This document shows, piece after piece, positions 5,056 to 20,218 of a DNA stretch of 64,000 bases (position 1 is its first letter; each line of letters begins with the position of its first letter). Location of the stretch: positions 62,001 through 126,000 of the forward strand of contig JAUIGE010000017.1 in the NCBI GenBank assembly GCA_030430205.1. Reading direction: 5' to 3'. The stretch comes from Bacteroidia bacterium. Lineage in GTDB: Bacteria; Bacteroidota; Bacteroidia; J057. The translations under genes and the position numbers were made by a program. Below the pieces are notes generated by a model. It saw nothing but the letters and a program-made list of their open reading frames with translations. It ran no database searches and was not told where the DNA came from.

Positions 5056-5853
5056 TCAATCCCCTGAGAGCGAAATATCGCCCTCATAAACAAAACTTGC
5101 CGGACCGATCAGGTATATTGCCTCATCAGGCTGTTGAAAGCGCTCAATAGCTACTTCGAGCTTGCCGCCTTCTGTCTGGACTTGTATCTGCGGAGCAGTC
5201 GCAGGATGTGAGCGGTGATAGGCATACGCACAGGCCGTGACACCGGTGCCACAGCTTAGGGTTTCTCCCTCCACTCCTCGCTCATAGGTTCTCACCTGAA
5301 GGACTGCATCTTCCAAAATATTGACAAAATTGACATTTGTCCCTTCTTGTCTGTAGGTATCGCTATTTCTGATCCTTCTGCCCTCCTGGTCAACATTGAG
5401 AGCGGAAACAGCTTCTGTCTGAAATTGTACATAATGCGGAGAGCCTGTATCCAGCCATACAGCATGGCTGGTGAGGGATTGGAATCCTTTGGGTTTACCC
5501 ATTTTAAGCTTCACCTGTGAAGCGAGTATGCTTGCTTCATGCAAGCCGTCTATGGCTTCAAAGGAACAGCTATTCTGTATGATACCCAGCTTTTGGGCAA
5601 AAGCGACGATACATCTGCCTCCATTTCCACACATGCTGCTTTCCCTTCCGTCTGCGTTATAATAAATCATTCGGAAGTCCTCCTCCGAAGAATCAGATAG
5701 CAAAATCAGGCCATCGGCCCCTATACCAAAACGGCGATCGCATAGAAAATGGATGTGCTTGGTTTCGAGCTTTTTTTCTAAGTCCAATCCCCTGTTATCC
5801 AGTAAGATAAAGTCATTACCAGTACCCTGGTATTTGTAAAAATGTAGGTTCAT
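5056..5853 (-). CDS. dapF: Diaminopimelate epimerase
   Basis: Converts LL- to meso-diaminopimelate for peptidoglycan and lysine synthesis in the cytoplasm. The start MNLHFYKYQGTGNDFIL is typical. The two catalytic cysteines are in SMCGNGGRC (about residues 73-81) and ETLSCGTGVTACA (about 197-209), and both are intact. The length of 265 aa is normal. Its start overlaps the stop of the upstream lipoprotein gene by the usual ATGA arrangement, so the two are co-transcribed and translationally coupled. Confidence 0.97.
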   Translation of the reverse strand: MNLHFYKYQGTGNDFILLDNRGLDLEKKLETKHIHFLCDRRFGIGADGLILLSDSSEEDFRMIYYNADGRESSMCGNGGRCIVAFAQKLGIIQNSCSFEAIDGLHEASILASQVKLKMGKPKGFQSLTSHAVWLDTGSPHYVQFQTEAVSALNVDQEGRRIRNSDTYRQEGTNVNFVNILEDAVLQVRTYERGVEGETLSCGTGVTACAYAYHRSHPATAPQIQVQTEGGKLEVAIERFQQPDEAIYLIGPASFVYEGDISLSGD

Positions 5854-6377
5854 AAATCTTCATCCGCTTCCTCAGGCGGCGCATTTTCATATAGCCGGGC
5901 GGCTATTTTGACTATCCCATAAATGGCATCCGATTCATTTGCATATACTTTCAATACATAAGGCGTATTGCTTTTCAGTATAAGTTCTGGAATGACAGTA
6001 AAGGTAAGGCTGTTATCCACCTGGTTGCCAGATGCCTGTCCTTGCCAATTTCCATCTTTCTTCAAAGGAACTGAAAAGGTGTACTCTGTGGGATAAGATT
6101 TGCTTACACTGTCTTTTCTTTCTACAAAGATAGCGAGTGGCAAAACATCCTGCCCAATGCTGCTAACATCATAGGTTACCTCAAACTCCAGCCGGGTATT
6201 GAGCTCGGGTTGAGGGTGGTCGAAACGAATTTCAAACTCACGAGCTACATTTCGGTAAAGCGTATAGTCACCAGACAGATTTACCTGTTCAGTCCATAGG
6301 GGAACGATCTCGCCGCACCCACTTAGCAGAATAAAAAAAAGAAAAGAGGGGTAAACAAATAGTGGTGGTTTCCTCAT
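5850..6377 (-). CDS. GldH-like lipoprotein
   Basis: A 175-residue lipoprotein: the hydrophobic signal (about 6-20) ends in LLSGC with the lipobox Cys near residue 21. The rest is a beta-rich domain with a C-terminal KIAARLYE strand and an acidic tail (EEADEDL). Length, lipobox and layout resemble GldH, a lipoprotein required for gliding and T9SS in Flavobacterium, but identity cannot be settled by eye. It is coupled to dapF by a 4-bp overlap and lies 71 bp downstream of nothing else on this strand except accA, whose stop is upstream of it. Confidence 0.55.
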   Translation of the reverse strand: MRKPPLFVYPSFLFFILLSGCGEIVPLWTEQVNLSGDYTLYRNVAREFEIRFDHPQPELNTRLEFEVTYDVSSIGQDVLPLAIFVERKDSVSKSYPTEYTFSVPLKKDGNWQGQASGNQVDNSLTFTVIPELILKSNTPYVLKVYANESDAIYGIVKIAARLYENAPPEEADEDL

Positions 6378-6448
6378 CTTGCTTTGAAAAGTCGAAAATT
6401 TCTGACCGCAAGCGAAAATACACTTTTCCTTTTACATAATAAAGTAAA

Positions 6449-7465
6449 TTAGACCTCTTCGCTCACCCGTGCGATTGTCTTTTTGGGGGAACTCTTAATT
6501 GCGCCAGATTCATCGCTTTGCCCCAAAGAGGTAAACTTATGAATACGTTGTTCAATCAATTTTTCCACCTTCAAAGCAGACAATTTTTTCAGGTCCTGTA
6601 GGATCTGTGCTTTTACATTTTCGAAAGCAGTTTCCGGATTTTTATGTGCACCACCGAGGGGTTCCTTGATGATGCCATCAATAATTTTGAGGCGGAGGTT
6701 GTCTTCAGCTGTAAGTTTCAGGGCCTCGGCGGCCTGTTCTTTTTGATCCCAACTTCTCCAGAGGATACTGGAGCAGGATTCTGGCGCGATAACAGAATAC
6801 CAGGTATTCTCAAGCATATATACCCGATCTCCCACACCTATGCCAAGCGCGCCTCCTGAGGCTCCCTCTCCGATAACGATGCAGATGATGGGGGTTTGCA
6901 AAACGGCCATTTCCATCAGGTTCCGGGCGATTGCTTCTCCTTGCCCTCGCTCTTCAGCTTCCAAACCAGGATAGGCTCCTGGCGTGTCTATGAGGCATAT
7001 CACAGGCATCCCAAATTTCTCTGCCATCTTCATCAACCGCAAAGCTTTGCGGTAGCCTTCAGGATTGGGCATGCCAAAGTTGCGGTATTGGCGCTCTTTG
7101 GTCGTGCGACCCTTTTGCTGGCCAATGATCATGACAGGCTGCCCGTCTATCGTGGCCATGCCGCCAATCATCGCTTTATCATCTTTGAAGTTTCTGTCTC
7201 CAAAGAGTTCGATGAAATCATCAGTAATGTGTGCGATATAATCGAGGGAATAGGGGCGATCAGGGTGGCGGGAGATCTGTACCCGCTGCCAGCGATTGAG
7301 GTTGCTATAGATATTCTTTTTAAGGTTCTCTATGGTTTTTTCCAATTCAGAGGTAGCCGGTCCCATCTCTGTGCTGGTATCCTCCGCAATGCGCTTCATC
7401 TCTTCAAGCTGGGTTTCCAACTCAATGATCGGCTTTTCAAAGTCAAAAACGTTATTAGGCTTCAT
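6449..7465 (-). CDS. accA: Acetyl-CoA carboxylase carboxyltransferase subunit alpha
   Basis: The alpha half of the carboxyltransferase that makes malonyl-CoA for fatty-acid synthesis; it works in a complex with AccD. Diagnostic stretches are [23 protein letters not shown], the oxyanion region [14 protein letters not shown], and [13 protein letters not shown]. The length of 338 aa is slightly over the usual 315-320, with a Ser/Lys-rich C-terminal tail (about 315-338). The N-terminus [13 protein letters not shown] is the family start. It follows gltA in the same direction after 193 bp that I could not assign. Confidence 0.97.
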
Positions 7466-7658
7466 ACAATTCCTAATTTTAGTTTTGATAAAACAACTGA
7501 GAGGCGAAATACCCTCCCATCAGGGAGATGATTCTCAGTGAAGATGCCTAATATACGCATCTCGCCTCTAAGTGCCAAAGGTGAAAGAATGAAGCCAGCC
7601 TGATTCAGATGAGCAGACTGACCGTGAATTTTTTGTATAATGGATTGAAAATCACCAA

Positions 7659-8948
7659 TTAGGAGCGATCCTCCATGGGCGTATAATCGCGCTTTGTATA
7701 GCCAGTATAAATCTGTCTGGGACGGCCTATGGCCTGGCCTGATTCGCGCAATTCTTTCCATTGAGCGATCCAACCCGGAAGCCTGCCCAGGGCAAACATC
7801 ACGGTAAACATAGGCACAGGAATGCCCAAAGCGCGATAGATAATCCCTGAGTAGAAGTCTACATTGGGGAAAAGCTTACGGCTGGAAAAATAAGGGTCTG
7901 CAATCGCTTCCTTTTCCAGGCCTTTGGCGATATCAAGTACCGGATCATCTATATTCAATGCGTCCAATACCTTGTCTGTATACATTTTGATGACCTTGGC
8001 ACGTGGGTCAAAGTTTTTGTAAACGCGGTGACCAAAGCCCATCAGGCGGAAAGGATCTTCCTTATCCTTGGCTTTGTCAATATACTTTTGGGTGTCGCCC
8101 CCATCCTCACGGATAGCTTCAAGCATCTCGATCACCTTCTGGTTGGCACCGCCATGAAGCGGCCCCCACAGGGCGCTATTGCCCGCAGCGATGGCTGCGA
8201 AGAGATTGACATGCGAAGAGCCCGCCATGCGGACAGTCGCTGCTGAGCAGTTTTGCTCATGATCTGCATGCAACACCAGCAAGGTGTCCAGAGCCTCAGC
8301 TACTTCGGCATTGACTTCGCCATACATCATGTGTAGAAAATTCTCCACATAGCCCAATGAAGGATCGGGGTCTATATAAGCCAGGCCCTGGCGGCGGCGG
8401 TATACATAAGCCACCATGGCTGGCATGTGTCCCAGCAAACGATAAATCGTGTTCCAGCGGATATCTTCATTTTTCCAGGAATCAACAGACTCAGGATAGA
8501 AGCCGGGCAAAGCTGAAATGATCGTACCGATCATGCTCATGGGATGTGCTTCACGTGGCAGGCTATCCAGAATAGCGCGCAGGCCGACAGGGGGCGTGGC
8601 ATTGTCTTTCAGCTTCTGCTCAAAGTGGGACAGTTCCGTTGCTGAAGGCAGCTCTGTATTTAACAGCAAAAACATCACTTCTGTAAAGGAAGAATGATCG
8701 GCCAACTGCTCAATAGGGTAGCCCCTATGCTCCAGGATGCCCTTTATTCCATCAATAAAAGTAATCGAGCTGGTTGTAGAGCCTGTATTTTTAAATCCTT
8801 CATCAAAAGTGACATGACCTGTGGTTTTCAACAGTTTGGAAATATCGATTCCTTTTTCCTGGTAACTGCCTGTAATGACAGGTAAGGAATAGCTTTCTTC
8901 GCCTATTTTGAGTTCCACGGTCTCCTGGGGTTCAGCAACGTCTGACAT
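7659..8948 (-). CDS. gltA: Citrate synthase
   Basis: Condenses oxaloacetate and acetyl-CoA at the entry of the TCA cycle. It is a type II (hexameric, NADH-sensitive class) sequence of 429 aa. Catalytic histidines are in GPLHGGANQ and GFGHRVYKNFDPRAK, and the HADHEQNCSAATVR segment is typical. The start MSDVAEPQETVEL is supported by a good promoter 60 bp upstream. An overlapping frame at 7462..7773 on the same strand is a shadow. Confidence 0.97.
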   Translation of the reverse strand: MSDVAEPQETVELKIGEESYSLPVITGSYQEKGIDISKLLKTTGHVTFDEGFKNTGSTTSSITFIDGIKGILEHRGYPIEQLADHSSFTEVMFLLLNTELPSATELSHFEQKLKDNATPPVGLRAILDSLPREAHPMSMIGTIISALPGFYPESVDSWKNEDIRWNTIYRLLGHMPAMVAYVYRRRQGLAYIDPDPSLGYVENFLHMMYGEVNAEVAEALDTLLVLHADHEQNCSAATVRMAGSSHVNLFAAIAAGNSALWGPLHGGANQKVIEMLEAIREDGGDTQKYIDKAKDKEDPFRLMGFGHRVYKNFDPRAKVIKMYTDKVLDALNIDDPVLDIAKGLEKEAIADPYFSSRKLFPNVDFYSGIIYRALGIPVPMFTVMFALGRLPGWIAQWKELRESGQAIGRPRQIYTGYTKRDYTPMEDRS

Positions 8949-9103: not shown

Positions 9104-10081
9104 TTAAGCCAATAAAAAATCTTTCCCTTCAGTAAGCTGCATTTTTTTTAAAAAATCTCTGATTTCTGCTCTTGCTCCTCTGTTGTTTACATAGGAAAGA
9201 ACAAAAATACCGGGATACTGTTTGAGCTTTTTGTAGGAAAAAACAGGAATTCCATCCAGTGCCTGTTGATCAAAAAGATCAATGAAAAAATCAGGCTTGA
9301 CGCCTGACTCCATCAAAGGCGCAAGGCGCCTCCTCGTTTTGCGACCCGCTCCCCAAACTGCCAGTTTGGGATGGCTATTGTGATCGCGCAGCCAGCGCGC
9401 CAGGTAGCGGGCCTTCACCCGCTCAAAAGCCATGAGGCTATATGCCTCACTTGTGCGCGAGAGCCTGTCGGGCGGATCATTCCACCGCAGCAGTACCTCC
9501 GGGACTTTGTCCATGATGACCCCTTTTTCGAGCCAGCGAAGCCAAAGCTCGTAATCTTCCGGGCCATCCTGCTCGCGGTACGCGCCATGCTGCAAGGCAA
9601 TCGCCTTGCGAAACATCACCGAAGGATGCGCCATAGGCGCATCTACAAAGCGATTGAGGGAAATGTCAGCAGGGCTGACAAGCTCATTGAGCCACCCGAC
9701 ATGGCTGGCATAGCCCTGCTGGCTGAGAGGATCTCCTCCATATTCGACCAGAGAACCCACAAGCCCTGTTTGAGGATGGGCTTCCATGTATTGCCATTGG
9801 AGGCGAAGGCGAGCCGGATAGGAGTAGTCGTCCGCATCCATGCGGGCGATATAATCGCCCTGGGCCATGCTGAGGCCATGGTTCAAGGCAGGGACGATCC
9901 CCTGATGGGGAAGGCTAAAACAGCGGATACGGGAATCCACTGCAGCATAGGATCGGAGGACTTGATTGCTGTTATCGCTAGAGCCATCATCGACAGCGAT
10001 AAGTTCCCAGTCGGTAAAATCCTGAGCCAGTATACTCTCAATGGCGATTGCCAGCGTTGAACCCGCATTGTATACGGGCAT
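9104..10081 (-). CDS. Family 2 glycosyltransferase with unusual start
   Basis: GT-A fold glycosyltransferase. It reads MPVYNAG, then AVDDGSSDNS (about 32-41) for nucleotide-sugar binding and RMDADDYS (DxD, about 79-86) for the metal. An ED.ELWLRW segment (about 175) would carry the catalytic base. The C-terminal 90 residues (KLAVWGAGRKTRRRL) look like a small nucleotide-binding or redox-sensor-like add-on. The ATG at 10081 lies inside the first beta strand. In-frame codons upstream encode ILSLFPTISVL, the normal family N-terminus, but only ATT (10114) or CTG (10111) could start them, right after an in-frame TGA. It sits just downstream of the carbonic anhydrase gene, last of the five-gene run. 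Confidence 0.85.
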   Translation of the reverse strand: MPVYNAGSTLAIAIESILAQDFTDWELIAVDDGSSDNSNQVLRSYAAVDSRIRCFSLPHQGIVPALNHGLSMAQGDYIARMDADDYSYPARLRLQWQYMEAHPQTGLVGSLVEYGGDPLSQQGYASHVGWLNELVSPADISLNRFVDAPMAHPSVMFRKAIALQHGAYREQDGPEDYELWLRWLEKGVIMDKVPEVLLRWNDPPDRLSRTSEAYSLMAFERVKARYLARWLRDHNSHPKLAVWGAGRKTRRRLAPLMESGVKPDFFIDLFDQQALDGIPVFSYKKLKQYPGIFVLSYVNNRGARAEIRDFLKKMQLTEGKDFLLA

Positions 10082-10122
10082 TAGAACGCTTATCGTGGGA
10101 AAGAGAGACAGAATTCAGCCTG

Positions 10123-10878
10123 TTAGTTGAATGATTTTAGGTCTCTTCCATTCAAGGGTTGTACCGGTCTGTAATTGTCATGAACGATTCCATGAATTTT
10201 GCTGATCTGTGCGCTGGATGCTTCAACGGCTGTTTGCATAACAAACCAGGTTACGATTTCAGAGCAGGGAGGAGTTGTAAGTGAACCTGCATAGGTGAAA
10301 TATCCGGGATCGGAAGGCAGCAAAGTAGAGATGTCAACCAGCGTTGAAGAAAAGAAATTTTTGTTTTCCTCCTCAGGCACATCATCAATAAACTTTGCCA
10401 GAAAGGTGTTTTCTGCCCCTTCTTCAAACAATATACCGACCACTGCCAGGTTGCCTGAAGTACTGCTTTTGTGGACGAGATGTGCTTCCATGGGAAAGCG
10501 AATACCATTTACGGTATGCTCTGAACCCGTGTGAAAGTGAACCTGTAGCAGGTCAAATGCTTCTCCATTGAGTGTCAGTGTACTTCCCATGTCATAATTT
10601 TGCTGAATGCTATGGCCATTGTTGACAAGGTTGATGGAACTGCTGGCATAGTCAGTATCCAGGCCCGAAAGGGAGGCATCCGCAACCGCCCCGACGATAT
10701 CAATGGGAGATTGATCAGAACCAGCGCAATCAGAATAACAACTTGGCCAGGTTTCTGGATTCGATTCCCCCTCATAAGTCCAATGAAATGCTTCACAGGC
10801 AAGTTCATCTTCTTTGCATGCAGAAAAAATAACTGAAATAAACAGGCAGCTAATTGCCAATAGTCGTAAGTTTTCCAT
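10123..10878 (-). CDS. Alpha-class carbonic anhydrase, lipoprotein
   Basis: Hydrates CO2 to bicarbonate, here outside the cytoplasm. The signal peptide ends at SACKED with a lipobox-like Cys near residue 20. Zinc ligands are the two His of QVHFHTGSE and the His of MEAHLVHK. QSPIDI, the buried SLTTPPCSE loop and the VHDNYRPVQPLNGR end are all family signatures, and the two loop cysteines could form the usual disulfide. The length of 251 aa is standard. It is 19 bp downstream of the CHAT gene, suggesting the same transcript. Confidence 0.95.
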   Translation of the reverse strand: MENLRLLAISCLFISVIFSACKEDELACEAFHWTYEGESNPETWPSCYSDCAGSDQSPIDIVGAVADASLSGLDTDYASSSINLVNNGHSIQQNYDMGSTLTLNGEAFDLLQVHFHTGSEHTVNGIRFPMEAHLVHKSSTSGNLAVVGILFEEGAENTFLAKFIDDVPEEENKNFFSSTLVDISTLLPSDPGYFTYAGSLTTPPCSEIVTWFVMQTAVEASSAQISKIHGIVHDNYRPVQPLNGRDLKSFN

Positions 10879-10897
10879 GTTGGTTTTTTTGTTAAAT

Positions 10898-13792
10898 CTA
10901 TAAAATTTTCCATATAACCAAAGCTCCTACCACGGAAAAAACGAGCACAAACATGGCAAGTAAATAGCGATGGGTAGGGTGGTTCCCCATCGGCATATCA
11001 TCTCCACTCAAAATAAAAGCTGCCCAAAAATAGGGATGTTTGAAAGGGCTGTTTTCCAGCATCTGCAGTTTTGCCTGCCTGAGGGCCTCATCTTTGGCCA
11101 TCCCTTTTTCTATATTTTGATAAAAACTTACCATCAAATCTGCTGTGCTTTGGTCATCTACCTGCCAGAGGCTCATCAGGATATTTTTGCAACCCGCATA
11201 CTGAAAAGAACGCGCCAGGCTCATGACGCCTTCTCCCCGGAGGATTTTTCCATAGCCTGATTCACAGGCGCTTAGGACGATGAGTTCAGCATCCAGTTTC
11301 ATTTGGTAAAGTTCATAGGCATAGAGAAAACCATCGTTTTGGGAAGTCAGCTTGTCCTGCTTGCTTTGCGAAAATACCAGGGCCGAAAAGAGGGGATTTT
11401 CCTCATCGAGTTGGCTGTGCATCGCCAGGTGAAGGATCCTACTTTCTGAAGCATGCTGCCAGAATGCTTGCTCTGTGGCAGATTCTGCCAGGAATTGCTG
11501 GCCGCCCATCATGCTGTGTATGCGCGTCACTTCCTTTCTGTTTTCGGAAAGCGGAACAAAATTTTTGTGAGAGGATACAAATGTGGCTACCGCTTCTCCC
11601 GGGGCAGCGGAGGATGAATAGATAGGCGCAAAGCCTGCAAATTTGTTTTGGGCCTGGGAAGAAAGAGCAGGCGTGAGCAACCACTCCGCAGAGGGGAGAT
11701 ACCGTATATGCATTTTTTTTAGCAAAAAAGGCCATTCAGCATAAGGCAAGGCAGGGGAAATGCTGTCGGCCAGCATCAATTCAAAGGGAAGATGGCTCAG
11801 GATGCCATCAGGAACGATAAGCAAAGCCTGGGGCTTTTCGGGCATTTGGTCCCAAAGGGGCTGTAGAATATGGGCGAAAAAAGAGTGTGCCTGAAGGGCA
11901 AGGTGCTGTTTTTCGGAAAGCAGGTTGGCTTGTTGCTTTACCCGGGAGCCATCACTCAGCTGCTGATAAAACAGCTCCAGGCTATCACGGGCTCCATCTC
12001 CAAAATCATTTTGGAAGGCTATGAGCTTCTGTTGACTCAGGGCAAAGCCATATAAACTTTTTTCACCTGTGAAATAAGAGATGAGCCATTCGCCTTTTTT
12101 GAGCTTTTGTTGAAAAGCAGTGATATCTGTGGAAGAGTGAGCGTAACGGAGTTGGTAGTAGGCAGGGTAAAGCTGCTCAATCTGGCGCTGGAGTGAATCC
12201 TTTTTCAGGTGAATGCGAAACAATTGCGCCTTGCTCTGATTGATTTGTGCGCTATCCCGCCCCTGCGCTACGCGCTGCTCCCACTGATCCTGCCGGATCT
12301 GGATCTGCTGCTCCAGATGAAGGACTTCATCGGGAATACCCGCGAAGTCGCGGGCCGCAGAAGCCTTCAGCGCACCGCGCAGCAAAGAAGCTTTGCTGCT
12401 TTCGTTATACGCGAAAGCCCGCGCCAGCTGTGTCTTGTCAGCTGTAAGCTGAAAAAGCTCCCAGGAGGCCTCTATGGCCCCTTCATACAACCTATGCGAA
12501 TGGAAACTCCCCCATTCCCGATCCTCCCTTTCCTGATAATTGAGGATGCTCAATTGACTCAGCCGAAGGCTGAAATCAAACAATTGCAGGGACTGCTGGA
12601 GCTTTTGGACAGGCAAATCTGCCTGCTCCGATAGCATCAATAGGCTCCATGCTTCATTTTCCATAATGGACTGGCAGGCCAGTCTGTGGATGGCCGAAAT
12701 GTCCTCTGCCCGTTTCTGAGCGGGAAAATCTGCCATCTCCGGCAAAAGTGCCTGCCGTGCCTGGCGGTAGGTGGAATAGGCCTTTGAAAAATGATCGAGC
12801 AGAAAATGAATTTCTCCTATTGCATTGAGAATGACAGCCATTTGCATACTATGAGGCCCATAAGCAGCTTCATAAACAGGAAGAATCTTTTGGTAATAGG
12901 AAAGGGCGACTTCCAGCTGGCCATCTCTTTTATACGCTTTCCCTATATAAAAATCAGCCCTCCCCAGTTGTATGGGATCTCCCGACAAATGCAGCCGGAT
13001 GTAGGCTTTGGCTTCTTCCAGATAAGCCAGAGCTTCTTGAGTATTTCCCTGGTTTTCATAGGCTAAGCCCAGGTTCTGAATGGCCATAGCTGTCCATTCT
13101 GCCCGATTGTTTTGTCTCCTTCGTACTTCCAGGGCTTTTTTATACCAATAAAGGGATTCTTCGTGCCGCCGGAGATCCCGTGAGATGAAACCCAGGATGT
13201 TGTAGCCATTTCCTAAAAAATGGATAAATGAATCAGCCTCTTTTTCCAAAATCCGCACCCCTGCCTCCGCATAATGATAAGCCTCCCGGAGGCGGTTTTC
13301 ATTTCGGAGCGTGATGGCAAGATTCAAATAGGATGTTGCTACTCGGTCACTTTGCTCTCCGAATACTTTTTTGCGTATTTCCAGGGCTTTGAGCCTGTTT
13401 TTTAGCTCCAACTTTGCCAGGCCGAGTTCTTGCTCAGTATTGGCGATGTCGTCATAGAGTTCGGCTGTTTCGGTATGGATTTCTCCCAGTTTTTCATAAG
13501 CGAAAATCAGGTCACTCTTCAACTGAAGGTAAGCCTGATTTTGCTTTTTGAAAGTGCGCAGGATGCGCGCCACATGTTTTCGGGAGTTGAAGTAGCAACT
13601 CCAGTTTTCCTGTGTAGCATAGGAAACTGCGGCAGCCTGATAAGCCAGGAGCGCCGCCTCCATTTGCTTGTTATCGCGAAGGCTGCGGGCATGTGCATAG
13701 AGGCTATCCTCTACGCAGGCAGGTAATATAGCCTGCGCATGTGCATACAGGCAATACCCCCCAAGCAAACAGACAAAAAGATACTTTTTCAT
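10898..13792 (-). CDS. Membrane-anchored TPR-CHAT protein (caspase-like protease)
   Basis: 964 residues. A signal peptide (1-20, ending YAHAQ) is followed by about ten TPR-type helical pairs (about 30-450, with repeated LGLAYENQGNTQEALAYLEE-like units), a helical linker (about 450-570), and a CHAT domain (about 570-930). The catalytic dyad is visible: His792 in LHLAMHSQ and Cys843 in LSACESG. A single membrane helix (about 942-962) ends the chain, so TPR and CHAT face the periplasm if the signal is real. CHAT proteins are cysteine peptidases of the separase/caspase clan. It lies in one run with the repeat protein and the FGE-fold protein, opposite an ECF sigma/anti-sigma pair; the substrate is not known. 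Confidence 0.92.
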   Translation of the reverse strand: MKKYLFVCLLGGYCLYAHAQAILPACVEDSLYAHARSLRDNKQMEAALLAYQAAAVSYATQENWSCYFNSRKHVARILRTFKKQNQAYLQLKSDLIFAYEKLGEIHTETAELYDDIANTEQELGLAKLELKNRLKALEIRKKVFGEQSDRVATSYLNLAITLRNENRLREAYHYAEAGVRILEKEADSFIHFLGNGYNILGFISRDLRRHEESLYWYKKALEVRRRQNNRAEWTAMAIQNLGLAYENQGNTQEALAYLEEAKAYIRLHLSGDPIQLGRADFYIGKAYKRDGQLEVALSYYQKILPVYEAAYGPHSMQMAVILNAIGEIHFLLDHFSKAYSTYRQARQALLPEMADFPAQKRAEDISAIHRLACQSIMENEAWSLLMLSEQADLPVQKLQQSLQLFDFSLRLSQLSILNYQEREDREWGSFHSHRLYEGAIEASWELFQLTADKTQLARAFAYNESSKASLLRGALKASAARDFAGIPDEVLHLEQQIQIRQDQWEQRVAQGRDSAQINQSKAQLFRIHLKKDSLQRQIEQLYPAYYQLRYAHSSTDITAFQQKLKKGEWLISYFTGEKSLYGFALSQQKLIAFQNDFGDGARDSLELFYQQLSDGSRVKQQANLLSEKQHLALQAHSFFAHILQPLWDQMPEKPQALLIVPDGILSHLPFELMLADSISPALPYAEWPFLLKKMHIRYLPSAEWLLTPALSSQAQNKFAGFAPIYSSSAAPGEAVATFVSSHKNFVPLSENRKEVTRIHSMMGGQQFLAESATEQAFWQHASESRILHLAMHSQLDEENPLFSALVFSQSKQDKLTSQNDGFLYAYELYQMKLDAELIVLSACESGYGKILRGEGVMSLARSFQYAGCKNILMSLWQVDDQSTADLMVSFYQNIEKGMAKDEALRQAKLQMLENSPFKHPYFWAAFILSGDDMPMGNHPTHRYLLAMFVLVFSVVGALVIWKIL

Positions 13793-13797
13793 TCAAA

Positions 13798-13818
13798 ACC
13801 ATGCTATCTCAGCATGGT
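13798..13818 (-). terminator. Hairpin between repeat-protein gene and CHAT gene
   Basis: A perfect 7-bp stem ACCATGC/GCATGGT with a 7-nt loop is followed on the minus strand by TTTTG, directly in front of the CHAT start at 13792. The T-run is short, so it may be a weak terminator that lowers CHAT expression relative to the upstream genes, or a structure that affects its translation. Confidence 0.4.
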
Positions 13819-13840
13819 CCTGAATATAAGGATAATTGCT

Positions 13841-14866
13841 TTACTTCTTTTGTATCCTGAGGCTAGTCTGGAGCTGGGTATCTTTATCAAAAATGCGAAT
13901 CAGGTAAAAAGCCTCTGTCAGGGGAGACATATCCAGCTGCACGGCATTGTCTGAATGCGGTTTAAGTGAAATAGGTATCTCACGCCCATGGAGGTCGTAG
14001 AGCTGGATGACAAGGTTTTCCTGCCTGATGTGTTGTTGAAAAAGGAGGGTCAGCAGGCCCGTAGTAGGATTGGGAAAAGCCTGTACCTCAGCCACATCCC
14101 ATGCGGCAAAATGCACCTCCACCCACTGGGAGGCTGTCGCCTCTCCATTGATGTCTACCGACATCAGGCGGTAATAGGACCTGCCGCTGAGCGGAGCGTA
14201 ATCCCAGCTCTCATAGCTGGCTGGCAGATCGGGGCTTCCCTGTCCGGGAAGTTGTGCTATCTGCTCGATTTGCTGCAAATCAGGACTTCTTTCCAGGAGG
14301 AAATGATCGTGATTGACTTCGCTCAGGGTAGTCCAAAGCAGTTGGACCTTGCCCTGAAGCGGTATCGCTTCAAAGCGCAACAACTCCACGGCGAAAGGCG
14401 CCGGGAAACGTGAGGGCAGCCCTAGCGCATAAAAATGCGCAGCTCCATCATCTATGCCCCCGGCAAAGATGCCGTTGTTGTCAGGAGAAGAGAAGCGCAG
14501 GGCGCTTCCGCCATCATCTACACCGCCCCCAAAAATGCGGCTGTTGTCTGCCTGGCTGTATGGCAGGCTGGCATAACCGTCTTCATTTCCCCCGCCAAAA
14601 ATCGGGTTGTTATCTGCCAGGGAAAAGTAAACGCGGGCATAGCCGTCTTCATTTCCTCCTGCAAAAATGGCATGATTATCCTGTATAGAGGTATAGGAAA
14701 TGCTTCCGCCATCCTCTGCTCCGCCGCCAAAAATGCGGTTCTGGGAAGGGATTTCGGCCACATCTATAGCGGCACCATCATCCACTCCTCCGGCGAAAAT
14801 GTAGTTGTGCTGGGCTGTAGCCCTCAGCAGGCACAAACTGCTTATGAGTAAAAGCAAGTATTTCAT
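13841..14866 (-). CDS. T9SS-sorted protein with six 22-residue IFxGG repeats
   Basis: The open frame extends upstream to 15022 but overlaps the preceding gene; the ATG at 14866 gives a clean signal peptide (MKYLLLLISSLCLLRATAQ). Residues 20-152 are six tandem copies of a 21-23-residue unit with core IF(A/G)GG(x)(D/E)DG and a closing D/N pair. A fibronectin-like segment follows (WTTLSEVNHDHFLLERS, about 185-270). The last 85 residues (VQAFPNPTTGLLTL, then QLYDLHGREI) are a type A T9SS sorting domain. It should therefore be exported and attached to the surface. The Asp/Gly-rich repeats could bind calcium, but that is inference. It is 26 bp downstream of the FGE-fold gene. Confidence 0.8.
   Translation of the reverse strand: MKYLLLLISSLCLLRATAQHNYIFAGGVDDGAAIDVAEIPSQNRIFGGGAEDGGSISYTSIQDNHAIFAGGNEDGYARVYFSLADNNPIFGGGNEDGYASLPYSQADNSRIFGGGVDDGGSALRFSSPDNNGIFAGGIDDGAAHFYALGLPSRFPAPFAVELLRFEAIPLQGKVQLLWTTLSEVNHDHFLLERSPDLQQIEQIAQLPGQGSPDLPASYESWDYAPLSGRSYYRLMSVDINGEATASQWVEVHFAAWDVAEVQAFPNPTTGLLTLLFQQHIRQENLVIQLYDLHGREIPISLKPHSDNAVQLDMSPLTEAFYLIRIFDKDTQLQTSLRIQKK
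14410..14809 (-). repeat. Six in-gene repeats of about 66 bp
   Basis: The DNA encoding the IFxGG units repeats six times with period about 66 bp (63-69). The codons for the I-F-(A/G)-G-G and D-G core are best conserved and the tails of each unit vary, which suggests old duplications under protein-level selection. Confidence 0.75.
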
Positions 14867-14892
14867 GGGATGAAGGTTAAAGTTTTGGCAAA

Positions 14893-16383
14893 TCAATTCG
14901 CGCTCCGAACGCCCCGCATCCCATGCCAGTTTTCCCTGTCGGAATTGTTGTAATTGGCGCCATAGCGCGTGCTCACCTCCGAACTCCGGTATCCTATACC
15001 GACGGCGCTGACAAAAGCCCAATCGGCCAGAAGCGTAAAGCTGCCATTGCCAGTACCGGTGACATTGCCGTCACCGTGCAGGCCGCTGAAATCGCGGCTT
15101 TGAGAATTCCCAACGGAAATCGTCATCTCATAGCAATTTCCGCTCATCTCCATGATGCCCCAGTAGGTAGCGCCGGTTTCTTCGCGGGTTTTGTGGGTGG
15201 CACTGGCGGCAAAGATGCCGCAGCGGACTGGGCGGCCAGAACCCACGTAAACGGAATTGGGGTTGGCGTTGCCAACATGCTGGCCGATGCCGGAAAGAAT
15301 GAGCTCTTCGGCTGTGCCTTCATTTTCGTAGGTATAATGATCTTCCAGATACCAGCTGGTATTGCCCCAGGCAAGTTCATTGGGAACGCCATCTAATGGC
15401 CCTCTGCAGGCTTTTTCGTACTCCAGCTCACTCATCGGCCGCAGACCCGACCAATCGAGATAGGCAGCCATATCAGCCCAGCTTATATAATGCATGGGAC
15501 GCCAGGGAAAGTCAGCAATTGCGTAGCCATTGCCATCCTGAACAGGGAAGACATCTACTGCATTGACATAAAAAGGGCCATCGCGATCTGTTTTTTGAGT
15601 CATATTGAGGTGAGCGAGGAAGTCGGCATATTGCTGTTGGCTTACTTCATACTTCATACAGTAAAAAGCTGCAAAGCCTTTGGGAAAGTCTGCCGGCAAA
15701 GTCTGGGTTTGACCATAATCAAAGTCATCCGCATTCAGCATATTGACCGCATCGTGATTGCTGAGGTTGTTGCTATTGGTGCCCCCGAGGGTGAGGGCGG
15801 CTTCGGATGTAATCTGAAAAGGCAGGCCTGTGTTTCCGGCTTCAAACTGCCCAAAATCTCCCTGTCCATCTCCAGCAAAAAATGCCCCCTGAGGTACATA
15901 TACCATCTCGATGGCATGCACGGAAATTTCAACGGCTTCATCATCTGCTATGCCATTTACGCCATAATTCCAGCGCAAACGCACATCCTGAAAATTGACA
16001 TGGCCAATACCAACCGCAGAGCGATAGATAAAAACGCCGATCCCATTGGTGGTGGTGCCGTAGGTGTTGTGGGCGGTTTGGATGATGCTGCCGGCCGGAG
16101 CTGTATGGCCGTCACTTGTTCCATTGACATAGTTGAGGGTGGCATGTTGCCAGTTTTCCTGGTTTTTAGGGGTAAATTTGATAAATACCCAGGCGGCATC
16201 CCAATTGCTTTCATAGGTGTTGGTACGCCAGGAGTTGTCCCATGACAAATCAAATTCTACCATGTAAAAGTCTGCAAATACATTTTGACTTGTCAGGCTA
16301 ACATTGCTGATTTGGATGTTGTTGGCAAAAAGCTGTGTACCAAAGCAGATGCCCAGGAGTAGGATAAGGAGTGATTTTTTCAT
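14893..16383 (-). CDS. Secreted FGE-sulfatase-fold protein, probably non-catalytic
   Basis: A signal peptide (1-20) is followed by a beta-rich domain (about 21-155) seen at the N-terminus of secreted Bacteroidota SUMF1 proteins. The formylglycine-generating-enzyme fold follows (about 156-496): MVYVPQGAFFAGDG, KYEVSQQQYADFL, RPMHYISWADMAAYLDW, GLRPMSELEYEKACRG, and WGIMEMSGNCYE. The final block of an active FGE has two nearby cysteines in a GGS..CR context; here the equivalent C-terminal stretch (about 430-496) contains none. A structural or ligand-binding role, as in C-type-lectin-like FGE folds, is more likely than formylglycine formation. It is the first gene of the leftward run and divergent from the sigma gene by 91 bp. 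Confidence 0.85.
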   Translation of the reverse strand: MKKSLLILLLGICFGTQLFANNIQISNVSLTSQNVFADFYMVEFDLSWDNSWRTNTYESNWDAAWVFIKFTPKNQENWQHATLNYVNGTSDGHTAPAGSIIQTAHNTYGTTTNGIGVFIYRSAVGIGHVNFQDVRLRWNYGVNGIADDEAVEISVHAIEMVYVPQGAFFAGDGQGDFGQFEAGNTGLPFQITSEAALTLGGTNSNNLSNHDAVNMLNADDFDYGQTQTLPADFPKGFAAFYCMKYEVSQQQYADFLAHLNMTQKTDRDGPFYVNAVDVFPVQDGNGYAIADFPWRPMHYISWADMAAYLDWSGLRPMSELEYEKACRGPLDGVPNELAWGNTSWYLEDHYTYENEGTAEELILSGIGQHVGNANPNSVYVGSGRPVRCGIFAASATHKTREETGATYWGIMEMSGNCYEMTISVGNSQSRDFSGLHGDGNVTGTGNGSFTLLADWAFVSAVGIGYRSSEVSTRYGANYNNSDRENWHGMRGVRSAN

Positions 16384-16402
16384 GACAGATTATTAATGGT
16401 TT

Positions 16403-16436
16403 GCTGTCACAGTCGAAATATTTTTGGGGCTGTCAC
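16403..16436. promoter_or_regulatory. Direct repeat GCTGTCAC in divergent promoter region
   Basis: GCTGTCAC occurs at 16403..16410 and again at 16429..16436, 26 bp apart, inside the 91-bp gap between the divergent FGE-fold and sigma genes. A TATTTTTG box (16419..16426, plus strand) lies between them but has no TTG at the right distance. The repeat could be a regulator or ECF-sigma site; this is suggestive only. Confidence 0.3.
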
Positions 16437-16474
16437 CCTTTTTCAAAAAAAATCAGTAATTCGCCTTAGAAATC

Positions 16475-17038
16475 GTGAAACCCATCTCAAAAATACATAG
16501 CGACGAAGCCATCATCCTGGAAATCCGCCTGGGCGGTATCCATGGAGAATTGGCAAAAACGAATCTTTTTCGTCAGTACGCCTATTTCGTGCGCAAGCGA
16601 CCGGCCAAGTATGGCTTGACGGAAGAAGATGCGTTGGACGCATATACAGATGCCTACCTGGCGGTGATAGACCACATCAAAAGCGGTCGCTTTCGGGGAG
16701 AGAGCAGCATCAAAACATACCTTTCCCGTATTTTTCGGAATAAATGTGTTGACAAGGCGCGCAGGAATGCGACTATGAAAGTAGACTGGGTGGAGGAGTT
16801 TCCGGATTTGCGGGATGAATCGCGCAATTTTTTGCAGACAATTATCAGTCGGGAGGAGCTGAAGGGCGTCAGGAAAAAACTGGCTTTGCTGAATGAAAAG
16901 TGTAGAGAAATGTTGCTTATGTCAGCTGAGGGCTATAGCCCGCTTGAAATCGCTCAAAAATTGAACCTTGCCACAGCAAGAAGCGCCTCCAGCCAGCGAT
17001 ACAAGTGCCTGGAGAAACTAAAAAAGATGATGAAATAG
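16475..17038 (+). CDS. ECF-type RNA polymerase sigma factor
   Basis: 187 aa starting at GTG 16475 (no ATG is available). Region 2 is about 35-100, with LTEEDALDAYTDAYLAVIDHI and the RGESSIKTYLSRIFRNKCVDKAR core-binding and -10 helices. Region 4 is about 125-187, with a helix-turn-helix at EGYSPLEIAQKLNLATARSASSQRYKCLEKL. This divergent type, with alanine/serine-rich region 4, is common next to CHAT or TPR genes in Saprospiria, from memory of the family. It lies 18 bp upstream of the anti-sigma-like gene and opposite the FGE/repeat/CHAT run. Confidence 0.9.
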   Translation: MKPISKIHSDEAIILEIRLGGIHGELAKTNLFRQYAYFVRKRPAKYGLTEEDALDAYTDAYLAVIDHIKSGRFRGESSIKTYLSRIFRNKCVDKARRNATMKVDWVEEFPDLRDESRNFLQTIISREELKGVRKKLALLNEKCREMLLMSAEGYSPLEIAQKLNLATARSASSQRYKCLEKLKKMMK

Positions 17039-17056
17039 AGCTCAAAACAACAAGCA

Positions 17057-17794
17057 ATGACCGAGTTAATAGATAAATACCTGAAAGGGGAGTTGAGTGA
17101 AGAAGAGCGAGTCGCTTTTGAAAAGCGGGTAGAGGAGGATCCCTATTTCAGAGGGGAGGTAAAAGGACAGATCAAGGCTGAATATGCCATTCGCACCAAA
17201 GCGAAAAAGGTCAAAAAACAAGCTTTAAAAGCGGAGTATGCCCGCCTTGTGGCGGAAACTGACGAGCTCAGGCGCATCCAGCCACTTTACCGTCGAAGCA
17301 GCTTTCTGATCGTCGCTGCCGCTGCGGTGGTCCTGCTGATAGTAGCCGTCCGCTTGTGGGGCAATAGCCCCAAAATGAATGCCGACGAACTTTTCGCGGC
17401 CTACATCCAGCCCGTGCCGCTTTCCTTCTCGCGCAGCGAGAGTGACACCGCCATGCTGAGCCTGGCCACCGCCTACCAGGGCGCATCCTATGCGCAGGCG
17501 ATCTCGGCAGCCGAAAGGCTGCTGAAGGATTCCGCATACGCTTCCTCCGCTCAACTTTGGTTGAGCCTCGCGATCAGCCAGCTGATGACCGACCAGCCAC
17601 AGGCGGCTCTGAGGAGCCTGAAGCAGATAGAGCCAGGCAGCGCCTATGAGGAGCAGGCGCTTTGGTATGAGGCCTTGGCTTTGCTCAAGGTGGATCCCGC
17701 GCTTGCGCGGGGGAAATTGGCAGAGATAGCCGATTCGGGGCATTATATGCAGAAGAAGGCGGGGGAGATGTTGGAGAGAATGGAGGAGGAGTAA
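17057..17794 (+). CDS. Anti-sigma-like membrane protein with periplasmic TPR-like domain
   Basis: 245 aa. The short cytoplasmic N-terminus (1-80) begins MTELIDKYLKGELSEEERVAFE, the pattern of Bacteroidota anti-sigma factors. One membrane helix (about 81-101) follows, then a helical Ala-rich domain (about 105-245) with repeats such as AISAAERLLKDSAYASSAQLW that read as TPR-like. It probably binds the sigma factor at the membrane through its N-terminus and senses a partner or cleavage through its outer domain. Translational proximity (18 bp) to the sigma gene supports a pair. Confidence 0.75.
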   Translation: MTELIDKYLKGELSEEERVAFEKRVEEDPYFRGEVKGQIKAEYAIRTKAKKVKKQALKAEYARLVAETDELRRIQPLYRRSSFLIVAAAAVVLLIVAVRLWGNSPKMNADELFAAYIQPVPLSFSRSESDTAMLSLATAYQGASYAQAISAAERLLKDSAYASSAQLWLSLAISQLMTDQPQAALRSLKQIEPGSAYEEQALWYEALALLKVDPALARGKLAEIADSGHYMQKKAGEMLERMEEE

Positions 17795-17795
17795 G

Positions 17796-17887
17796 GTTTT
17801 TTGACGCAGATTTATACTGATTTAACTGTTTCAAAATGTAAAAAGCAACAGTGCAAATCAGTCAAATCAGTGTTCTCCGTGTCAATT
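17796..17887. repeat. GACGCAGATTT-type imperfect palindrome
   Basis: The left arm (TTTGACGCAGATTTATACTG and on) and the right arm (ending GTGTCAATTC) are imperfect reverse complements that share ACTGATTT(A/G)ACTG. The element fills most of the gap between convergent genes and may act as a two-way terminator. Related copies lie at 20098..20218 and 48398..48515. Confidence 0.6.
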
Positions 17888-17909
17888 CTTCCTCCTAAAT
17901 CCATCGTCC

Positions 17910-19445
17910 TCAAAATACTTTTTCAGCCCATTCTTCAACCTCCTTTTTCTCAATAGAAAAATTGATCCCCACGCCAATCCGCTTTTTCTTCGAGTCCATA
18001 TAGGGCTTGAAATAGCCTTTTTCTCCAATTTGATTCACCGCTTCTTCAGCGGATTTACCCAATTTGAATTCGAGGATATAAATGGAATCCGGTGTCTCGA
18101 CTTTGGCATCGAGTCGGCCATTGGAGCTGTTGATTTCGGATTGGATGAAAACGCCCATGAGGGAGCAAAGCAGGTGGATGAGCGCGTGGTAAAAGGCTTC
18201 ATTTTCTTTTTGCCAAAGAGAGGCAGGAATAGATGCGAAAGCTGAATTGATGATCCGGATGAAAAGCTCCACATTTCCCTCCTCCAGCGCCTCTACAAGC
18301 TCCAAAGCTCTGACTTTTCCAGCGCCATATTCGTCATAGGCATAAGCGTTGAGCAGGCGTTCTTCCAGGGAAGCTTTTACTTCCTGGTTGGGATAATCTA
18401 TGATGTAAATGCCCTGACGATATTTTTCAAGAATGGTGACATAGCCTGTTTGGAAAAGGATCGTCAGCGGATTGAGATTTTCTAAATCGTAGCTGTTAAG
18501 GACGGAGTCCGAGGCTTTCATGGGTTCGATTTTGAAGAAACGGGTGTCCTTCATTTTTTTGACCAGAAAGGTCGGCGTGCCTGTCTCGAACCAGTAGTTT
18601 TCGAATTCTTCGGATCGCAAAAAGCTCAATAGCGAAAAAGGGTTATACACTTTGGTTTTGCCATTCCAGGAATAGCCGTTATACCAGCGGCGCATTTCCT
18701 CCATGAGTTCTTCCAGTTCAATCTGCTTATGGTCAGCAATTTCCTGGAGCTTTTTATCAAAATAATGGCGAATCTCCTTTTCTGTCAGTCCCAATAAATC
18801 TGCTGCCTGGAAATCCAATGTCAGATTTGTCAGGTTATTCAACTCAGAAAAAATGCTTGTTTTGCTGAAGCGGCTGACGCCTGTAAGGAATACAAATTCC
18901 AGATAGGGGTCACTGTCTTTAATGACAGAATAAAAGGTTTTGAGATGATCGCGGTTGATAGCAGCCTGATTGAGATGATCTAAATAATCAATGATGGGCT
19001 TGTCATATTCATCAATTAACAGAACAACTCTTTGCTGATATTTTTTATATGCTTCTTCAATTAATTCCTTGAGTGGATGATAATAATCACCTTTTTGAAG
19101 CTCAACACCCAGGCGGGTGGCCTCTTCATCCAATCCTGTTTCAATGGCTTTGGGTAAGGACTGTTCTTTATATTTGAAACTGGAAAATTTTACATGAATA
19201 ACAGGGTGTGATTTATTCCAATCCCACTGATCTTCAATCCACAGTCCTTCGAAAAGCTCTTTTTGGCCTTCAAACAAAGCCCTCATCGTAGAAAGCAAAA
19301 GCGATTTTCCAAAACGCCTGGGCCGGGAGAGAAAAAGGTATTTTCCAGTAGTAACAATCCGATGGATATGCTCCGTTTTGTCTACATAAACGTAACCTTC
19401 GTTCCGAATTTCACTAAATGTCTGTATCCCTAATGGTAGCTTCAT
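17910..19445 (-). CDS. AAA ATPase with C-terminal PD-(D/E)XK nuclease-like domain
   Basis: 511 aa of the AAA-ATPase-like/DUF1703 family abundant in Bacteroidota. The N-terminus MKLPLGIQTFSEIRNEGYVYV precedes a Walker A-like RPRRFGKSLLLST (about 41-53) and a Walker B-like VVLLIDEYDKPIID (about 140-153). The C-terminus has the restriction-nuclease-like core YILEFKLGKSAEEAVNQI with the D..E.K spacing. The biological role of these proteins is unsettled; defence or mobile-element links have been proposed. It is 20 bp downstream of the Uma2 gene and likely co-transcribed with it. Confidence 0.85.
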   Translation of the reverse strand: MKLPLGIQTFSEIRNEGYVYVDKTEHIHRIVTTGKYLFLSRPRRFGKSLLLSTMRALFEGQKELFEGLWIEDQWDWNKSHPVIHVKFSSFKYKEQSLPKAIETGLDEEATRLGVELQKGDYYHPLKELIEEAYKKYQQRVVLLIDEYDKPIIDYLDHLNQAAINRDHLKTFYSVIKDSDPYLEFVFLTGVSRFSKTSIFSELNNLTNLTLDFQAADLLGLTEKEIRHYFDKKLQEIADHKQIELEELMEEMRRWYNGYSWNGKTKVYNPFSLLSFLRSEEFENYWFETGTPTFLVKKMKDTRFFKIEPMKASDSVLNSYDLENLNPLTILFQTGYVTILEKYRQGIYIIDYPNQEVKASLEERLLNAYAYDEYGAGKVRALELVEALEEGNVELFIRIINSAFASIPASLWQKENEAFYHALIHLLCSLMGVFIQSEINSSNGRLDAKVETPDSIYILEFKLGKSAEEAVNQIGEKGYFKPYMDSKKKRIGVGINFSIEKKEVEEWAEKVF

Positions 19446-19465
19446 AAGGCTAAATTACGAAGAAA

Positions 19466-20053
19466 TTATTGCGCTCCCATTTCCATCTCCACCCGATCAT
19501 ACAAATCCCTCAAAGCCACCTCAACTCCTACAGACTGAAAAGCAATTTTCCCATCCAGGTCACTATATCTATTATATCGCCAACCTTTTTCATCTTTAGA
19601 AAATATCTCAACATTAACCTGATTCTGGGAAATCAGGACATATTCCTGTAAAGAAGGCAGCGTTTGATAAGAAAGGAATTTTTCGCCCCGATCTCGGATT
19701 TCGCTTTCTGGAGAGATGATTTCAATGATCAGGATAGGGTTATCGATCATATCGTTGCGACCTCGTGCATAAGAAAGATCTCCGCAAACGACCATTGCAT
19801 CAGGGTAATAAAAAGCTTTTTTGTGACCGATGGCGACTTTGACCTCACTAGAAAATACTTCAGAGCTTTTATTCTTCAATGAGAAATGAAGCTCTGAAAC
19901 AAGATTTCTTGAAATACGCTCAAGTGGAACACTCGTTCCTGCCATAGAAACAACGTACCCATCAATAAACTCACTCTTTTCCTGAGCCTTGTCCTCACGA
20001 ATTAAATATTCTTCAGGACTTATAGGATGTAGTTTTTCTACTACGTCGCCCAT
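19466..20053 (-). CDS. Uma2-family endonuclease (DUF820)
   Basis: 195 aa from the ATG at 20053; a longer open frame to 20170 runs into the palindromic repeat and is not protein-like. PEEYLIRE, FIDGYVVSMAGTS, YYPDAMVVCGD (active-site Asp), and LIIEIISPESEIRDRGEKF (E.. catalytic strand) followed by YVLISQ mark the PD-(D/E)XK fold of Uma2 proteins, many of which occur in multiple copies in Bacteroidota and cyanobacteria. Targets and role are not known. The tandem position with an AAA/nuclease gene is noteworthy. Confidence 0.85.
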   Translation of the reverse strand: MGDVVEKLHPISPEEYLIREDKAQEKSEFIDGYVVSMAGTSVPLERISRNLVSELHFSLKNKSSEVFSSEVKVAIGHKKAFYYPDAMVVCGDLSYARGRNDMIDNPILIIEIISPESEIRDRGEKFLSYQTLPSLQEYVLISQNQVNVEIFSKDEKGWRYNRYSDLDGKIAFQSVGVEVALRDLYDRVEMEMGAQ

Positions 20054-20097
20054 TTTTGTCTCTTTTCTACAATTTACAAAAAATTGACAAAGCTTTC

Positions 20098-20218
20098 TTT
20101 TTTGACGCAGATGAACGCAGATTATTATGATAAGAATTATGTAAAAAGAAGGATAATCGCCAATCAACATTCCCTCCCAAACATCTTAAATCATAATAAT
20201 CATCGAAGATCAGCGTCC
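20098..20218. repeat. GACGCAGAT-type palindromic repeat
   Basis: The left arm TTTTTTGACGCAGATGAACG and the right arm ending ATCAGCGTC are inverted, with an exact 12-bp inverted core GATTATTATGAT/ATCATAATAATC. It sits between metH and the Uma2 gene. It belongs to the same family as 17796..17887 and 48398..48515. Confidence 0.65.

Follow-up and report, generated by a model that had tools for sequence, protein, structure and literature searches.

A TPR-CHAT protein linked to an ECF sigma factor and its TPR-bearing anti-sigma factor in Bacteroidota: a probable site-1 protease matched to a linker arginine

The window, that is, the whole stretch of 64,000 nucleotides analysed here (positions 62001–126000 of contig C6 in the 7.2-Mb genome of a Bacteroidia bacterium, G000, called the own genome below), encodes a TPR-CHAT protein of 964 amino acids (10898–13792, minus strand), an extracytoplasmic function (ECF) sigma factor of 187 amino acids (16475–17038, plus strand) and a putative anti-sigma factor of 245 amino acids (17057–17794, plus strand). 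We propose that these proteins form an envelope signalling switch, in which the CHAT protein would cut the linker of the neighbouring anti-sigma factor after Arg126 and free the ECF sigma factor, and we hold this reading as a whole with good confidence. Judged from sequence comparison, site-1 cleavage of the neighbouring anti-sigma factor is probably the role of the CHAT protein. The proposal draws chiefly on the conserved linkage of the genes and on covariation between the linker residue and three positions of the CHAT domain.

In the proposed mechanism, the one-helix anti-sigma factor would hold the ECF sigma factor and expose an outer part made of a short juxtamembrane linker and a TPR domain. 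The TPR-CHAT cysteine protease would be exported, anchored by its C-terminal helix and docked on this outer domain. A presumed trigger would lead the CHAT protein to cleave the linker between Arg126 (P1) and Ser127 (P1'), so that a stub of about 26 residues remains. As in the RseA pathway, an M50 intramembrane protease would then finish freeing the sigma factor; cleavage would act in the direction of activation. M50 peptidase genes are present in the own genome.

The initial annotation of this DNA had described a TPR-CHAT protein with a signal peptide, a C-terminal anchor and an intact His792/Cys843 pair, and this description was borne out by profile, hydropathy and conservation. In searches with Pfam and NCBIfam models, the CHAT profile PF12770 matched residues 639–931 (E 2.4e-61; 208 bits against a cut-off of 24) and TPR was also matched, with helical repeats at about 28–541 in the structural model. 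The hydrophobic N-terminus and a C-terminal transmembrane (TM) helix at 943–961 found by hydropathy predict a signal peptide and a membrane anchor, and among 95 CHAT proteins linked to sigma/anti-sigma pairs a C-terminal TM helix was found in 91 and an N-terminal hydrophobic stretch in 72. His792 (codon 11417–11419, minus strand) and Cys843 (11264–11266, minus strand) are invariant in 20 CHAT proteins of the own genome, which has 29 CHAT matches, 22 of them with E below 1e-38. Among 96 linked CHAT proteins the dyad is complete in 95, the histidine being present in all 96 and the cysteine in 95; the 96th is a partial gene at a stretch end. The AlphaFold model (predicted local distance difference test, pLDDT, 86) resembles Csx29, separase and DdvA. 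By profile and dyad the protein is assigned to the CHAT peptidase family, and peptidase activity is predicted.

An ECF sigma factor followed by a one-helix anti-sigma-like protein with a TPR-like outer domain had also been noticed, and profiles, hydropathy and a confident model agree with this view. The sigma factor was matched by Sigma70_r2 at residues 31–99 (E 5.7e-8) and, over the cut-off, by the sigma70-ECF profile (E 8.8e-19), while an r4_2 match at 133–166 stayed below its own cut-off; the protein has regions 2 and 4 only. The gene next after it encodes a protein with weak matches to anti-sigma profiles (best E 8e-7, below the curated cut-off), a helical domain predicted to be cytoplasmic and a single TM helix at 82–100 by hydropathy; one TM helix is also found in 91 of 95 anti-sigma factors. 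The AlphaFold model (107 sequences, pLDDT 91) has a TM helix at 80–102, a juxtamembrane helix at 109–116, a coil forming the linker at 117–130 and TPR helices from 131 (domain 131–243). The anti-sigma profile matched solved TPR proteins over about positions 127–239; a Foldseek search with the model listed TPR-type proteins, none of them at E <= 0.001. From profile and model together, the outer domain appears TPR-like. The own genome has 16 matches to this protein, two of which are pieces of one gene, and the 15 paralogues, when aligned, have an inner helical domain, one TM helix and an outer domain in which Trp203 is invariant.

For examining linkage, we called a CHAT gene linked when a full CHAT gene lay within 7 kb of a sigma/anti-sigma pair. 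In the own genome every one of the 15 anti-sigma paralogues adjoins a sigma gene, and for 10 of them a full CHAT gene is found no more than 7 kb away, while only one of 13 other sigma matches without this anti-sigma (C20:182781) is near CHAT (a hand count, in which L094 reaches a contig end). CHAT proximity of the sigma/anti-sigma pairs in the own genome is more than chance. We then took 60 stretches around anti-sigma matches in other genomes, which were chosen from a longer list favouring full-length matches and none of which was picked for CHAT; with the own genome included, 42 of 70 pairs have CHAT within 7 kb, and 30 of 40 where 7 kb was covered on both sides. The anti-sigma family was matched at 1e-10 in 24 of 40 genomes (own included), the strong matches being concentrated in the family to which the window belongs. 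At the class level, anti-sigma factors were found at E <= 1e-30 in 52 of 296 genomes (at most nine candidates were scored per genome), and CHAT was present in 14 of 20 stretches taken from this set.

The converse survey started from CHAT in the GTDB collection: among the best 80 of 534 relatives, the anti-sigma family was found in 42 stretches and sigma in 46, while 31 stretches, many of the 80 being short, had neither. The linked taxa of this survey include Aquimarina, Fulvivirga, Agaribacillus, Splendidivirga, Roseivirga, Phaeodactylibacter and many metagenome-assembled genomes. Lack of a conserved co-occurrence of CHAT with the sigma/anti-sigma pair was what the initial annotation had named as refuting its proposal; checked from both sides, the co-occurrence is conserved. 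Over all stretches we collected 135 distinct anti-sigma open reading frames (ORFs), 96 with CHAT within 7 kb and 39 without it. Tests on pairs used 95 of the 96, L150 being left out as its CHAT gene ends at the stretch boundary. The 95 pairs comprise 46 divergent, 28 convergent and 21 same-strand arrangements, with sigma–anti-sigma–CHAT operons among them, and the occurrence of three layouts indicates that the link between CHAT and anti-sigma outlives rearrangement. When neighbouring genes were clustered in search of a further companion besides CHAT, none occurred in more than seven loci; the two largest clusters, proteins with a type IX secretion system (T9SS) tail and response regulators, comprise seven loci each.

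Several loci near this subject are worth recording in their own right. In the own genome, L087 (contig C32) has two tandem sigma/anti-sigma pairs at 9276–12495 and 17044–19292, one anti-sigma (10700–11920; 406 amino acids) being fused to an FGE domain; relatives of the FGE gene and the repeat gene of the window are found 5–7 kb away, and the stretch has no CHAT. A 599-amino-acid protein with a weak CHAT match is directly divergent from a sigma/anti-sigma pair in L143 of genome G001 (about 5510–8900). In L192, L196 and L198, members of the anti-sigma family are divergent from CHAT, and no sigma gene was recognised directly beside them.

The residue-level evidence concerns the segment between the TM helix and the TPR domain. 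In 107 relatives this segment reads L-F-A-x-Y-F-x-P-Y-P, followed by Arg (78%; Met in 10%) and then mostly by Gly or Ser. The window has R126-S127 at this site (Arg126 codon 17432–17434, plus strand; predicted cut R126/S127), within the coil and some 26 residues beyond the TM helix; the distance between site and TM helix has a median of 26, with the 5th to 95th percentiles at 22–33. Among 74 pairs of the common type, 76% have Gly or Ser as the residue following the site (P1'). Because clan CD proteases mostly prefer a basic P1 residue, as a passage of PMC4357240 states, the site residue was tested against the CHAT pocket. CHAT and anti-sigma were each aligned to their own profile, blind to the other. 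Asp880 had been proposed before the column scan, while Glu754 and Ser841 emerged from it.

Among the 95 pairs, Glu754 is found in 76 of 76 with an Arg or Lys site and in 4 of 19 others (Fisher 3.5e-14), Ser841 in 76 of 76 and 7 of 19, and Asp880 in 74 of 76 and 7 of 19 (Fisher 7e-9). Within the own genome, Asp880 is present in all seven Arg/Lys pairs and in none of three Met/Leu pairs. When 71 variable columns of the anti-sigma were scanned against 136 of the CHAT domain (9,656 column pairs), the first three ranks were R126–E754 (1.4e-13), R126–S841 (2e-10) and R126–D880 (2e-8), and R126 appeared again at rank 6 (with A790, two residues before His792) and rank 10 (with M887). The same three columns were again the top three for R126 when the whole CHAT protein was scanned (305 columns; 87 pairs with sigma); as controls in these 87 pairs, the best of 58 sigma columns reached p 2e-3 and the best other anti-sigma column, the site itself excepted, 1e-3. 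Shuffling of partners within eight genomes gave 29.9 +/- 3.0 concordant pairs expected against 42 of 49 observed, and 0 of 20000 shuffles were as high. With the CHAT tree and the anti-sigma tree, respectively, Pagel tests gave 7e-8 and 3e-10 for E754, 6e-6 and 2e-7 for S841, and 8e-4 and 5e-5 for D880. After reduction to 64 clusters at 35% identity, E754 remained at 49/49 against 2/15 and D880 at 47/49 against 5/15. All 14 pairs of the last-fetched stretches, which were collected once the hypothesis had been formed, were concordant, 13 being of the common type (Arg with E/S/D at positions 754, 841 and 880) and one having Leu with D/G/P.

These patterns suggest a specificity code readable in sequence, in which an E/S/D pocket goes with Arg and other pockets mostly with Met or Leu; an Arg site was also seen with E/S/E (L159) and E/S/S (L170). 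Five loci (L064, L079, L132, L137 and L165), in all of which the site is Met or Leu and the pocket lacks Glu754 and Asp880, carry related T9SS-tail proteins of about 300 amino acids between sigma and CHAT, and perhaps represent a sub-system with a third partner; L079, a locus of the own genome, pairs Met with an L/A/A pocket. As a separate observation, four related TPR-CHATs of the own genome (L069, L070, L074 and L075) share a Q/A/G pocket, their stretches contain no sigma, and three of the four lie behind a gene of 267–335 amino acids matching the T9SS repeat-protein model; such CHATs perhaps belong to another substrate class.

The three covarying positions fall where the S1 pocket would be expected. 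Glu754 (codon 11531–11533, minus strand), the top partner column of R126, lies on the predicted helix alpha1 (749–762 in the model), the first helix to follow the opening strand of the catalytic fold; the second and third partners, Ser841 (11270–11272, minus strand) and Asp880 (11153–11155, minus strand), lie two residues before and 37 after Cys843. For the Arg-specific protease MALT1, whose catalytic cysteine we take to be residue 464, the corresponding spacings are -2 and +36. S1 specificity in clan CD is described as being set by three elements, alpha1, L4 and L5, which in MALT1 carry Asp365, Asp462 and Glu500 (passages of PMC4357240), and P1 Arg is said to be served in separase and gingipain-R by an acidic residue located at alpha1 or close to it (a passage of PMC4626109). 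By sequence position and predicted secondary structure, E754, S841 and D880 would fit these elements. Likeness to separase and MALT1 covers the fold (separase Z up to 27.7), the His/Cys dyad and the acidic S1 residues for P1 Arg that excerpts of the same two papers describe, while both differ in being eukaryotic and in having other substrates.

We also compared distances among the proteins within genomes over 75 linked triplets, with significance assessed by shuffling. Anti-sigma and CHAT distances correlate with r 0.41, a value that 0 of 2000 shuffles reached; anti-sigma and sigma correlate with r 0.53, and sigma and CHAT more weakly with 0.19 (p 0.05). The outer part of the anti-sigma correlates with the CHAT domain (r 0.38, p 0.001) and with the TPR part of the CHAT protein (0.29, p 0.009), while its inner part correlates with neither (0.10, p 0.22 and 0.14, p 0.15) but does so with sigma (0.31, p 0.002).

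A number of observations weigh against the proposed switch or narrow it. CHAT was absent within 7 kb in 28 of the 70 pairs (10 of the 40 with full flanks), and the 39 distinct anti-sigmas without CHAT nevertheless have Arg or Lys at the site in 29 cases (where flanks are full, in 10 of 15, with Met in the remaining five), which suggests that CHAT may act in trans or that another protease may serve. Conversely, the E/S/D pocket is present in 55 of 67 distinct CHATs with no anti-sigma in view and is thus usual there, so that the preference for Arg would not be special to the anti-sigma role. Parsimony on the CHAT tree counts four changes for E754, five for S841, seven for D880 and eight for the site class, and four changes of E754 mean few independent events. 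The 19 non-basic sites include seven with D880, seven with S841 and four with E754 (L131, L136, L163 and L233), and L131, L136 and L233 combine a non-basic site with an intact E/S/D pocket. After the fact, L131 and L136 may be explained by wrong partners (six genes lie between in L131, and the CHAT of L136 is beside another sigma) and L233 by misalignment, an Arg being two residues off; L163, with a Val site and an E/S/S pocket, is a real exception. The outer part of the anti-sigma is also correlated with sigma (r 0.47), more strongly than with CHAT, and sigma is in turn correlated with the CHAT domain (r 0.26, p 0.007), so that the division between inner and outer parts is not clean.

The foremost rival is a securin-like lock, in which the linker Arg would sit uncut in the S1 pocket as a pseudo-substrate, the anti-sigma would restrain the protease, or each the other, and release of CHAT would be the output. 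Covariation reports a relation between residue and pocket, not a cut, and a contact of this kind would yield the identical covariation; the folds closest to CHAT include separases, which are inhibited by a protein bound at the active site. A scissile bond would, however, be expected to show the preference for Gly or Ser at P1', and a two-step release the narrow range of stub lengths; the His/Cys dyad is almost always kept, and we therefore consider the lock improbable. Covariation of the linker Arg with the predicted S1 pocket lends support, at the level of residues, to the supposition of the initial annotation that the outer part of the anti-sigma would be cut by CHAT; the annotation's other suggestion, that a surface partner is the target instead of the anti-sigma, appears less likely.

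A surface target returns in a second rival, to which we give marginally less weight than to the lock: the sigma factor would activate the surface-protein run together with CHAT, CHAT would cut surface partners of the T9SS type, and another protease would free the sigma factor. The T9SS-tail proteins in the five loci, the 46 divergent pairs and a retained gene order agree with it, since L166 of genome G005, which belongs to another genus, keeps anti-sigma, sigma, FGE, repeat protein and CHAT in this order (about 9645–16900). Such an output role leaves unexplained why the linker residue changes with the CHAT pocket and hardly with anything else in the three proteins, and no shared promoter dyad was found for it; it could hold additionally, as feedback. 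Mere hitch-hiking, in which duplicated blocks keep CHAT and sigma together with no functional contact and the residue pattern marks clades, would suit the large paralogous expansions in single genomes and the few independent pocket changes, but is very unlikely in view of the three layouts, the distant taxa, the significance retained on trees and among the 35% identity clusters, and the position of the covarying columns where an S1 pocket fits.

Regarding control of the divergent run by the sigma factor, also suggested in the initial annotation, the data give no support so far. The best dyad, TAAC-N17-CATT, was found upstream of 9 of 122 sigma genes and 0 of 390 controls, but in 0 of 83 upstream regions of divergent genes (a count restricted to this dyad), and 49 of the 95 pairs have CHAT in convergent or co-directional orientation; a promoter motif common to the sigma and divergent genes was rejected on this dyad count. 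A GGTAACC palindrome occurs upstream of 16 of 122 sigma genes, in several genomes, against 6 of 390 control genes; it is perhaps an autoregulatory element, and autoregulation of the sigma factor is possible.

Turning back to the proposed switch, its nearest counterpart is the type III-E CASP/Craspase system (Csx29–Csx30–CASP-sigma). As described in passages of PMC10028731, Csx29 cuts Csx30, an inhibitor of CASP-sigma, and the likeness extends to the TPR-CHAT architecture, an ECF-sigma inhibitor as substrate and a sigma gene nearby. By fold, too, the window CHAT is matched best by Csx29 (Z 29.8 with 7y9x_B, root-mean-square deviation 7.4 over 580; Foldseek E 1.3e-15); plain TPR proteins reach Z 19 to 26 with the same model, which means that part of its Z is owed to the repeats. 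Csx29 differs in being bound to Cas7-11 and activated by target RNA, and its cytoplasmic action with an RNA-guided complex is not matched by the predicted signal peptide and C-terminal membrane anchor of the window CHAT. Csx30 orthologues are cut at the non-conserved sites A|S, L|D and M|K according to a passage of PMC11106740, unlike the conserved Arg preceding the predicted cut here. Weak profile alignments place Gly and Ser of the Sb TPR-CHAT at the S841 and D880 positions, with Glu seemingly kept at E754. A PADLOC search of seven genes of the locus matched a TPR model alone, the rest of the genome and CRISPR arrays lying outside this search. For fold and logic alike, the analogy with Craspase drawn in the initial annotation is a good one, but separases and DdvA are likewise among the closest solved relatives.

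DdvA of Myxococcus xanthus (PDB 8ROT, 8RW5; structure paper in Sci Adv, 2024) is likewise a transmembrane anti-sigma factor with an outer TPR-CHAT fold, but the PDB titles imply that its TPR-CHAT lies inside the anti-sigma polypeptide, whereas two genes are used here and the anti-sigma has a small TPR domain. By sequence, DdvA is the best PDB match of the CHAT-domain profile (E 5.4e-9), followed by TPR-CHAT/Csx29, and its fold matches with Z 21.1; a search of the PDB with the single CHAT-domain sequence gave no match, while the profile search did. The active site of DdvA is reportedly incomplete. Further comparison is offered by RseA (DegS/RseP) and Bacillus subtilis RsiW, one-helix ECF anti-sigmas resembling the present one, with its predicted outer cut near the membrane followed by M50. 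DegS is a PDZ serine protease, while the outer protease here is predicted to be a clan CD cysteine protease with TPR, and many modules have their own copy. Such pathways are cited in PMC10028731, and inactivation of DdvA is described as freeing the ECF sigma factor DdvS (a passage of PMC4374960).

With Csx29/Csx30 and DdvA, TPR-CHAT acting on an ECF sigma system is already known in two forms. The apparent novelty here is that the protease stands alone and is anchored in the membrane, that the TPR anti-sigma is a protein apart, and that this arrangement is widespread in Bacteroidota, multiplied within genomes and provided with a readable P1/S1 code. In terms of sequence features it is probably a non-CRISPR envelope version of the Csx29/Csx30/sigma logic. 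Our literature search, which did not cover ECF group classifications, found no non-CRISPR CHAT/ECF sigma system and no substrate for non-CRISPR TPR-CHATs, and the present analysis names a predicted substrate, scissile bond and specificity code; TPR-CHAT genes are numerous in the own genome. If this is true, Craspase and DdvA would join a wider class of CHAT-controlled sigma factors, and part of the CHAT-gene expansion in Saprospiraceae would gain a function. More speculatively, and less likely than not, a cell of Bacteroidota may run many insulated membrane channels in parallel (at least 10), each with its own separase-like TPR-CHAT that frees its own ECF sigma by cutting a P1-matched linker, and the membrane form may be older; Craspase would then be its soluble descendant, with Cas7-11 in place of the envelope sensor.

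Concerning the other genes of the locus, which were assigned as longest-ORF calls, the sigma gene is separated by 91 bp (16384–16474) from a divergent minus-strand run, as the initial annotation had it, and ORFs and strands were confirmed. The run begins with a secreted FGE-fold protein of 496 amino acids (14893–16383; FGE-sulfatase E 1.4e-12), followed by a secreted repeat protein with a T9SS sorting tail (342 amino acids; 13841–14869) and the TPR-CHAT gene, and both proteins have close homologues in L166, the FGE protein in the same order. The start of the repeat protein was corrected, 14869, which gives 342 amino acids with the signal peptide included, being more likely than 15022. A carbonic anhydrase (10123–10878, minus strand) and a GT2 glycosyltransferase (9104–10081, minus strand) continue the run behind CHAT. 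On the other side, an AAA-ATPase_like/PDDEXK_9 protein and a 234-amino-acid ORF behind it (17910–20170) are convergent to the anti-sigma gene.

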